In this document: positions 33,239-35,618 of the stretch, piece after piece
How the letters are laid out: each line of letters starts with the position of its first letter
Position numbering within the stretch: the first letter of the stretch is position 1
DNA from: an uncultured Lachnospiraceae bacterium
Lineage (GTDB): Bacteria > Bacillota > Clostridia > Lachnospirales > Lachnospiraceae
Length of the DNA stretch: 50,333 bases
Direction of reading: 5' to 3'
Assembly (NCBI GenBank): GCA_949738465.1
Contig: CATJBQ010000230.1
Location: 1-50,333 of the forward strand
Notes under the pieces: generated by a model
Databases searched by the model: none
Told to the model about the DNA's origin: nothing
What the model saw: only the letters and a program-made list of their open reading frames with translations
Made by a program: the position numbers and the translations under genes

Positions 33239-33598
33239 ATGGATGAACGCAGGGCAAAGCAGCGTCAGGCCCGGGTCAGAAGGGCCGGCCAGAGAAGGCA
33301 GCGCTATCATAACAAACAGAATAAGACAGGCATGATCTGCGTCACCTTTGTGGTGCTGTGCCTGCTGGTGGGTGTTTCTACGCAGATTGTCCGTCTTTAC
33401 CATAAGAATGAGGCTTATAAGATCCGGGAGGAGCAGCTTGTGAACCAGTTGGAGCTGGAACAGGAGCGGCAGGAGGAGCTTGCGGCCTATGAGGAGTATA
33501 TGAATACGCCGGAGTACATCGAAGAGCTGGCCAAGACCAAGTTGGGACTGGTGAACGATAACGAGATTATCTTTAAAGAGGAGAAGAAGGATCCTTAA
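33239..33598 (+). CDS. divIC: septum formation protein DivIC/FtsB-like
   Basis: One TM, coiled-coil, YMNTPEYIEELAKTKLGLVNDNEIIF; synteny. Confidence 0.88.
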   Translation: MDERRAKQRQARVRRAGQRRQRYHNKQNKTGMICVTFVVLCLLVGVSTQIVRLYHKNEAYKIREEQLVNQLELEQERQEELAAYEEYMNTPEYIEELAKTKLGLVNDNEIIFKEEKKDP

Positions 33599-33687
33599 GA
33601 CCTGCCTGAATATCCTCTAATTCTTAAACTCCCTCGAAAGGAGAAAAAGTCCCAAAGCGGCACTGATTTTGCCGAAAAGTTTTTGCC

Positions 33688-33729
33688 AAGGATTCCCTGA
33701 TTTGACAAACATTTCAGGGAATTTTTTTT
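33688..33729 (+). terminator. intrinsic terminator downstream of divIC, overlapping the spoIIE promoter
   Basis: ATTCCCTGA (33692-33700) / TCAGGGAAT (33714-33722), extendable by A-U/G-U pairs, then T8. Confidence 0.75.
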
Positions 33730-33734
33730 ATAAT
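33702..33734 (+). promoter_or_regulatory. Spo0A-dependent-type spoIIE promoter with 21-bp spacer
   Basis: TTGACA (33702-33707), N21, TATAAT (33729-33734); TTTGACAAA (33701-33709) is a reverse 0A-box core overlapping the -35. Confidence 0.8.
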
Positions 33735-33776
33735 GGCCTCTGCCGATTTTGATTGGCGGAAAGGGAGGTCATAAGA

Positions 33777-35618
33777 ATGGACAGAAAAAAATGGAAACAG
33801 CTATTGGTGTATGGACTGACCCTGGGGGCGTCCAGGGTGGCAGTGGCCGGATGCTTTCCCCTGATACCGGGGGTCTTCACCGCGGCCCTTCTGGTGGAGA
33901 TCAATCCCACGCTGCTTCTGATCTTCTCCCTATTTGGCATGGCGTTGTTTCTGCCGGTGCAGGCCATGGCAAAATATGGGATGGCCGTCCTGGTGACGGC
34001 GGTGGCGGTGCAGTTGGTGCGCTGGGCCATGAAAAGCTGCCGCACAATTGTGGGGGCGGTGATCGGCGGCGCAGCCACGCTGATCCTCACGATAGCCGGA
34101 GAGCTTTTAGAGATCAGAAACCGGGGCAGCCTCTGGATGGGAATCTTGGAAAGCATCTTTGTGGGAGCCTTTGTGCTGCTGGCAACACCTCTGCTGTACG
34201 GATTTATGGAGCAGGGACAGGCCCGGCAGTTAAGACGCAGGGTGCGGGCCCCGGAAAACGGCCAGCGTCTGAACTCCTATGCGGAAGCCTTTGGCGGGCT
34301 GTCCCGCCTCTTTTCCCAGATGAGCCATAAAAAGGATCAGTTTGCGGCGGAGGAGATGGGACGGATGCAGCAGGAGATCACGGCCAGAATCTGTATATCC
34401 TGCGACCAGTGCGCACTGTGCTGGGAGCGGGAAAACAGCCCCATGTACGAGATGTTCCACCGGCTGCTGTCCTCCATGGAAACGCTGGGGATGCCCAGGG
34501 AGGAGTTGCAGGAGGAATTCTCCCAGTACTGCGCGTATCCCCAGGTCATCATAGAGGAAGCGCTGGGAGTTTTTGAACGGGCCAGGCTGAATATGTCCTG
34601 GTACAACCGGCTGCTTGAGAACCGGGAGGTTATCGCCCAGCAGTTAGACGCCATGGCCTATATTATGGAGGACTGCGCCAGGGAGTATGTGGACATCACC
34701 AGGGAGCAGGGGAAGCTTCTGGCAGGGGTGCGCTACCGCCTGCGGGAGCGGGGCGGCCAGGTGAGGGAGGTCCATCTCTATGAGAAACAGAACGGACGCC
34801 TCTGCCTGCAGCTTACCCTCAGCGCAAAATGGGGAAGCTGCATTGCCGTCAAGGATCTGGCAAAGGCAGTGTCCGACGGGATGCACAAAACCATGATCCC
34901 GGTCCGGGACAGCAAGACCCTGGTGGGAAAAGAAGAGACGGTCTTAACCTTTGAGGAGCAGCCGCTCTACCGCACCTTACACGGAGTAGCCCGGATCCCC
35001 AAGGACGGCGCCCAGGTCTCGGGGGACAACTTCTCCTTCCTGGAGCTGGAGGGAGGACAGAGCGTGATTACGCTGTCCGACGGCATGGGTTCGGGAATCC
35101 GGGCTTGTAAGGAAAGTGAAATGGTGATAGAGTTAATAGAGAGGTTTCTGGAAACCGGATTCCGCAAGGAGACGGCCATCCAGATGATGAATTCCGCAAT
35201 GGTGATGCAGGGGGAGGACGGGATGTTTTCCACTGTGGACATGGCGGCCATCGACCTTTACACAGGTGTGTGTGAATTTTACAAAATCGGTGCGGCAGCC
35301 ACCTTTATCAAGCGGGGAGACCAGGTGCAGAGCATCTGCGCCGCCAGCCTTCCGGTGGGGATCTATCCCCAGGTGGAGTTAGAACGTAGCAGTGTAAATC
35401 TGAAAGACGGGGATTTTGTGATTCTGGTGTCGGACGGCATTATGGATTTTCTTTCGGTGCCGGATCCGGAGGAAACCATGAAGGAAGTCATTGCGTCGGT
35501 GCAGATCAACAATCCGGAGAAGCTGGCCCGACTGCTGATGGAGCGTGTGCTGCTGTTTACCGGCGGGAAGGCGCCGGATGATATGACGATCCTGGCGGCC
35601 GGGATCTGGGAGCGATAG
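33777..35618 (+). CDS. spoIIE: stage II sporulation protein E, PP2C-type phosphatase
   Basis: N-terminal TM segments; VITLSDGMGSGIRACKESE...VSDGIMDF...DDMTILAAGIWER; synteny. Confidence 0.95.
   Translation: MDRKKWKQLLVYGLTLGASRVAVAGCFPLIPGVFTAALLVEINPTLLLIFSLFGMALFLPVQAMAKYGMAVLVTAVAVQLVRWAMKSCRTIVGAVIGGAATLILTIAGELLEIRNRGSLWMGILESIFVGAFVLLATPLLYGFMEQGQARQLRRRVRAPENGQRLNSYAEAFGGLSRLFSQMSHKKDQFAAEEMGRMQQEITARICISCDQCALCWERENSPMYEMFHRLLSSMETLGMPREELQEEFSQYCAYPQVIIEEALGVFERARLNMSWYNRLLENREVIAQQLDAMAYIMEDCAREYVDITREQGKLLAGVRYRLRERGGQVREVHLYEKQNGRLCLQLTLSAKWGSCIAVKDLAKAVSDGMHKTMIPVRDSKTLVGKEETVLTFEEQPLYRTLHGVARIPKDGAQVSGDNFSFLELEGGQSVITLSDGMGSGIRACKESEMVIELIERFLETGFRKETAIQMMNSAMVMQGEDGMFSTVDMAAIDLYTGVCEFYKIGAAATFIKRGDQVQSICAASLPVGIYPQVELERSSVNLKDGDFVILVSDGIMDFLSVPDPEETMKEVIASVQINNPEKLARLLMERVLLFTGGKAPDDMTILAAGIWER

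Follow-up and report, generated by a model that had tools for sequence, protein, structure and literature searches.

How the end of one gene and the start of the next can be written into the same few bases is the question raised by the 178-bp gap between divIC and spoIIE in an uncultured Lachnospiraceae bacterium. The gap lies in a window, by which we mean the whole 50,333-nucleotide stretch of DNA that was analysed, with the gene order hup, an S4-domain gene, yabP, yabQ, divIC, spoIIE and tilS. The species is represented by a single 3.9-Mb draft genome (263 contigs, 76% completeness), which encodes a full-length Spo0A that agrees with solved Bacillus Spo0A in its DNA-binding domain, the stretch SRVERAIRHAIEVAWSRG being identical. 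We consider it likely that positions 33668-33734 form a Spo0A~P-activated sigma-A promoter of spoIIE which, in this species only, is also the terminator of divIC. The features on which the argument turns are as follows.

33239-33598, plus strand: divIC, the upstream gene, for a DivIC/FtsB-type septum protein (Pfam PF04977, E 5.6e-10)
33668-33678, plus strand: forward 0A box TTTGCCGAAAA, with the core TGCCGAA at 33670-33676, recognised by conservation
33679-33690, plus strand: conserved GTTTTT-type tract after the forward 0A box, possibly UP-element-like or a weak second box
33692-33700, plus strand: 5' arm of the hairpin, ATTCCCTGA, reaching 33688 with two G-U pairs, from folding and found in the window only
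33701-33709, minus strand: putative reverse 0A box TTTGTCAAA over the -35, inside the hairpin loop
33702-33707, plus strand: -35 hexamer TTGACA, from direct reading and comparison of loci
33711-33714, plus strand: ATTT directly downstream of the -35, 86-99% conserved
33714-33722, plus strand: 3' arm of the hairpin, TCAGGGAAT, within the promoter spacer, from folding
33722-33729, plus strand: T8 tract, serving as terminator U-tract and last part of the spacer, from direct reading (d-score 18.2)
33729-33734, plus strand: -10 hexamer TATAAT, 21 bp from the -35, from direct reading, comparison of loci and a genome pattern search
33740-33759, plus strand: leader hairpin CTGCCGAT-TTTG-ATTGGCGG before the Shine-Dalgarno sequence (-9.7 kcal/mol)
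33741-33742, plus strand: predicted spoIIE transcription start at a conserved pyrimidine-purine step, from the column profile
33777-35618, plus strand: spoIIE, the downstream gene, for a PP2C phosphatase of 613 aa (PF19732 and PF07228), starting with ATG at 33777

The preliminary description of this DNA had placed the hexamers, the forward box, the stem and the T8 tract correctly to the base, and direct reading gives a spacer (33708-33728) of exactly 21 bp. It had called the forward box imperfect, which has to be corrected, as the core fits TGNCGAA exactly. The element combines near-consensus hexamers and an over-long spacer (21-22 bp in the spoIIE/spoIIG class) with boxes that resemble TGNCGAA, at the sequence level, both upstream of and over the -35, and it stands before spoIIE, which it would drive, in a genome that has Spo0A. 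The reverse box reads TGTCAAA, a 6/7 match to TGNCGAA.

To place this promoter among its relatives, 80 spoIIE relatives were taken from a collection with one genome per species, and for 78 the upstream DNA was set beside that of the window, giving 79 loci that are nearly all from Lachnospiraceae and, being related, yield counts of non-independent events. The sequence TTTGACAAA, which is the forward-strand reading of 33701-33709 and contains the TTGACA, is unchanged in 77 of the 79 loci, and a TATAAT-like hexamer follows exactly 21 bp downstream in 76 (in one further locus, L044, the distance is 22 bp). At L031 (Roseburia inulinivorans) and L057 the arrangement is absent at the expected place, possibly through loss, rearrangement or a start-site error. 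A column profile of 76 aligned loci shows three conserved blocks, namely the 0A box with A and T tracts, TTTGACAAA(C/G)ATTT, and a T-run with the -10, while the spacer keeps its length but not its central bases, which vary freely. The forward box, whose core begins 32 bp upstream of the -35, is among the best conserved parts of the region, with an invariant fourth-base C and first A; the tract behind it (columns -22 to -18) is 80-95% conserved, and the predicted start falls on columns that are a pyrimidine in 99% (column 39) and a purine in 96% (column 40) of loci. A T-rich run before the -10 is likewise common in the relatives (70-74% T in columns 24-26). A broad pattern of the footprint matched 18 times in the family (397 genomes) and never in the reversed control, which shows that the exact footprint is restricted to part of the family; apart from the window, the hairpin arms occur in none of these 18 matches. 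The alignment of divIC-spoIIE spacers that the preliminary description had suggested thus upholds the promoter with its 21-bp spacer and leaves the hairpin to the window alone.

Three independent tests agree in placing the promoter in the Spo0A class, and the same spacing marks the second gene of the class. The two genes known for activation by Spo0A with sigma-A are spoIIE and spoIIG, and at the latter, in B. subtilis, it is established that Spo0A~P acts at a step after polymerase binding and contacts sigma-A. In the 3.9-Mb genome the exact pattern TTGACA-N21/22-TATAAT has five matches (reversed control, none), and the two with N21 lie before spoIIE and before spoIIG, the latter 39 bp before the SpoIIGA domain. 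The three N22 matches were considered as further Spo0A promoters and rejected, as each has an alternative -10 at N17 (5/6, 5/6 and 4/6 to TATAAT). In more distant sets spread over the order and the class, 21 bp is the best-scoring spacing in all 24 spoIIG regions (24 genomes) and in 41 of 58 spoIIE regions (58 genomes), a few of these tied with another spacing, against a distribution that is flat over 15-25 bp in the shuffled sequences used as null. A TGNC motif stands at -32/-33 in 22 of the 41 distant spoIIE promoters. Of the mismatches to TTGACA in the 65 distant promoters, 44 affect TTG and a single one ACA, whereas in ordinary sigma-A promoters TTG is the most conserved part of the -35. 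Because ACA is invariant and the TGT of the box lies opposite it, this argues for a reverse 0A box over the -35. Relatives near and far, together with spoIIG, thereby bear out both the over-long-spacer promoter and the box over its -35, as first proposed. Genome G000 has eight more exact TTTTGNCGAAAA sites (C62, C68, C76, C85, C130, C151, C259; L094-L100, L102) that are possible Spo0A targets; most are probably chance, because the genome-wide total of nine is no higher than the 12 of the reversed control.

A conventional sigma-A promoter, in which another hexamer at 17 bp is the -35 and the TTGACA a coincidence, would suit the normal preference of sigma-A for 17 bp. We give this reading hardly any credence: TTTGACAAA would not be kept almost throughout, nor the spacer held at 21 bp while its middle varies, the best -10-like hexamer 16-18 bp from the window TTGACA matches at only four of six positions, and the same spacing recurs at spoIIG. 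Taken together, these points already contradict it.

The hairpin around this -35 is of a different standing. Its stem has 9 perfect base pairs, or 13 with two G-U pairs, its loop of 13 nt is longer than is usual for terminators, and T33722 is common to stem and T-tract as T33729 is to T-tract and -10. Folding of the RNA gives -17.9 kcal/mol (z -5.3), which none of 200 shuffles equals, and U8 follows directly; with a d-score of 18.2, the hairpin is the sole positive-scoring terminator in the 178-bp gap. No significant Rfam match was found around the site, the one chance match, antisense inside spoIIE (E 0.27), lying below the cut-off. At the sequence level the hairpin is a credible intrinsic terminator, and it probably works. 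An operator for another dimeric regulator, in which ATTCCCTGA-N13-TCAGGGAAT would be an inverted repeat at the -35 with arms about two helical turns apart, would fit the 22-bp arm-to-arm spacing and the position over the -35; it is very improbable, given that the arm pair was found at no other site in the genome and in no relative, and that a terminator, unlike an operator, requires the T8 which comes immediately behind the 3' arm. The search for the pair elsewhere also disposed of a repeat shared with other sites.

Is a terminator, then, part of the promoter's design? Single hairpins were scanned up to 260 bases upstream of the -35, a scan that may miss other terminators and may include the end of divIC in some loci. 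A terminator spanning the -35 was found in the window only, one of 77 loci, with loci of the same genus included, so that the hairpin is not kept at this position in relatives, a feature that would support but does not strictly define an intrinsic terminator; a hairpin belonging to the conserved promoter was accordingly rejected. Elsewhere, 42 of the 76 other loci have a positive-scoring terminator. It lies upstream of the 0A box in 29 of 77 loci, among them the closest relative, L002; its U-tract runs into the upstream 0A box in 11 (about twice that by a looser scan), and it encloses the box in two (L044 and L075). No positive-scoring terminator was found in the stretch scanned in 34 of the 77 loci. 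The nested terminator of the preliminary description thus stands in this sequence as a strong and sole candidate within the gap, and not as a property of any other locus.

Several overlaps of another kind came up in this comparison. Across the whole clade L006-L023 and L079, terminator and Spo0A box have bases in common: a divIC terminator (CCCCTTAGAATCGCC...GGTTCTAAGGGG, about -76 to -34 from the -35) sends its U-tract into the upstream 0A box (TTTTTGTCTAAAAG). In L044 and L075 the 0A box lies inside hairpins (about -56 to -4 from the -35), and in L075 the U-tract enters the -35 directly (TTTTTTTTGACAAA). Upstream of spoIIGA in L112, the T-run of a terminator-like hairpin (GAGTGAACTTAATTTGAGTTCACTC) merges into the TTTACA of the -35, which makes for a comparable overlap at spoIIG.

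The promoter could also be real and the hairpin a neutral accident, with divIC transcripts reading through or ending by Rho or processing. The single occurrence among 77 loci, the 34 loci without a positive-scoring terminator, and the T-rich spacer with TTTCA in relatives, which puts the hairpin a few substitutions away, all favour this. The spacer of L002 already holds TTTCAGAGAATTC and a T-run, so that about two substitutions were enough to give the 3' arm; the 5' arm is less similar. Against it stands the rarity of such a fold: a hairpin across the -35 at or below -15 kcal/mol (observed, -17.3) arose in none of 3000 promoters drawn from column frequencies and in none of 3000 arm shuffles, and a chance below 1 in 3000 per promoter leaves, as a point estimate, fewer than about 0.03 expected in 77. 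The sequence also equals working terminators in quality, and a chance hairpin this strong would probably terminate anyway. We hold the neutral accident to be unlikely, though it is the rival with most in its favour. Chance origin is unlikely per promoter, but the hairpin was noticed post hoc and is one case in 77 loci, so that the argument is not overwhelming. Since not even loci of the same genus share the hairpin, it is not proven to be under selection and may be an accident of the one-in-thousands kind.

The most economical explanation has the terminator drifting freely in position, with the promoter held fixed, until in this species the terminator settled on the promoter core; it would have replaced one that lies nearer divIC in relatives. 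The promoter, as judged from these sequences, is old, fixed and of a known type, and the nested terminator is a lineage-specific superposition outside the promoter design, because it is absent from all other loci, those of the same genus included.

On the reading that we prefer, a Spo0A~P-activated promoter overlaid by the divIC terminator, comparison establishes the promoter type; Spo0A contacts, start site and termination are predictions. RNA polymerase would find TTGACA and TATAAT at 21 bp poorly usable together, and Spo0A~P on the forward box (33668-33678) and the reverse box (33701-33709) would position sigma-A to engage TATAAT. Because the box centres are 31 bp apart, about three helical turns, Spo0A would occupy a single face of the helix, one of its two sites being on the -35. 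At B. subtilis spoIIG, as summarised in PMC12090719, Spo0A~P acts after polymerase binding and contacts sigma-A. In this species, drift in the spacer and immediately upstream of the -35 would have given rise to a hairpin of 9-13 bp with U8 behind it, so that a transcript through divIC would end at the hairpin, with release at about 33725-33730, where the -10 begins or a few bases ahead of it. One stretch of about 45 bp would then act as RNA at the end of the divIC transcript and as DNA at the start of spoIIE.

A working switch would go further: Spo0A~P and sigma-A polymerase at 33668-33734 would block or alter termination of polymerase coming from divIC, or arriving polymerase would clear Spo0A until upstream transcription falls, coupling spoIIE activation to the end of divIC-operon transcription. 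We regard this as distinctly improbable; its evidence is the overlap itself, and Spo0A control of termination, if real, could not be a conserved mechanism. A further hairpin lies where the spoIIE leader is predicted to begin, and the leaders of 74 loci fold better than shuffles (mean z -1.6; 61% below -1), which suggests a 5' stabilising or translation-tuning element.

Comparison shows a fixed 21-bp Spo0A/sigma-A design at both spoIIE and spoIIG over much of the class Clostridia, in which, to our knowledge, few such promoters have been mapped. Its pattern (invariant ACA in the -35, a box at -32/-33 and N21) can guide the search for direct Spo0A targets among spore formers that have not been cultured. 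That a terminator can be free in position where the promoter is not, even to the point of overlapping the promoter core, is clearly illustrated by the nested terminator, which is also a natural test of how far a promoter tolerates an internal terminator. If the terminator works, the polymerase that ends the divIC transcript crosses the 0A box and the -35 before release, and heavy upstream transcription could therefore be predicted to hinder activation of spoIIE.

No precedent for the promoter/terminator overlap was found in the literature searched. Like the Spo0A~P-activated promoters of the Bacillus subtilis class, those described here belong to the same genes, with near-consensus hexamers, an over-long spacer and 0A boxes upstream and over the -35, and both genes of this genome are so arranged. 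They differ in having 21 bp at both genes, in the invariance of the last three -35 bases and, in this species, in a core promoter that can fold as a terminator as well. The Spo0A of C. difficile binds the DNA upstream of spoIIE, spoIIGA and spoIIAA, at spoIIE and spoIIGA with low affinity (PMC3485338), and the spoIIGA promoter mapped in that species carries the boxes GTGACA and TATAAT (PMC3789822); in the portions of these two papers available to us, nothing like the nested terminator of the window is described. With intrinsic (Rho-independent) terminators the hairpin shares a GC-containing stem, the U8 immediately behind it and a location where a transcription unit ends, and it departs from them in its loop, which holds the -35, and in a U-tract that enters the -10 of the next gene. 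Its nearest parallels are the relatives in which terminator and Spo0A promoter have bases in common, by U-tract overlap (L008-L023, L079) or by enclosure of the box (L044, L075); there the overlap falls on the upstream 0A box, and in the window alone it takes in the -35 and the spacer.
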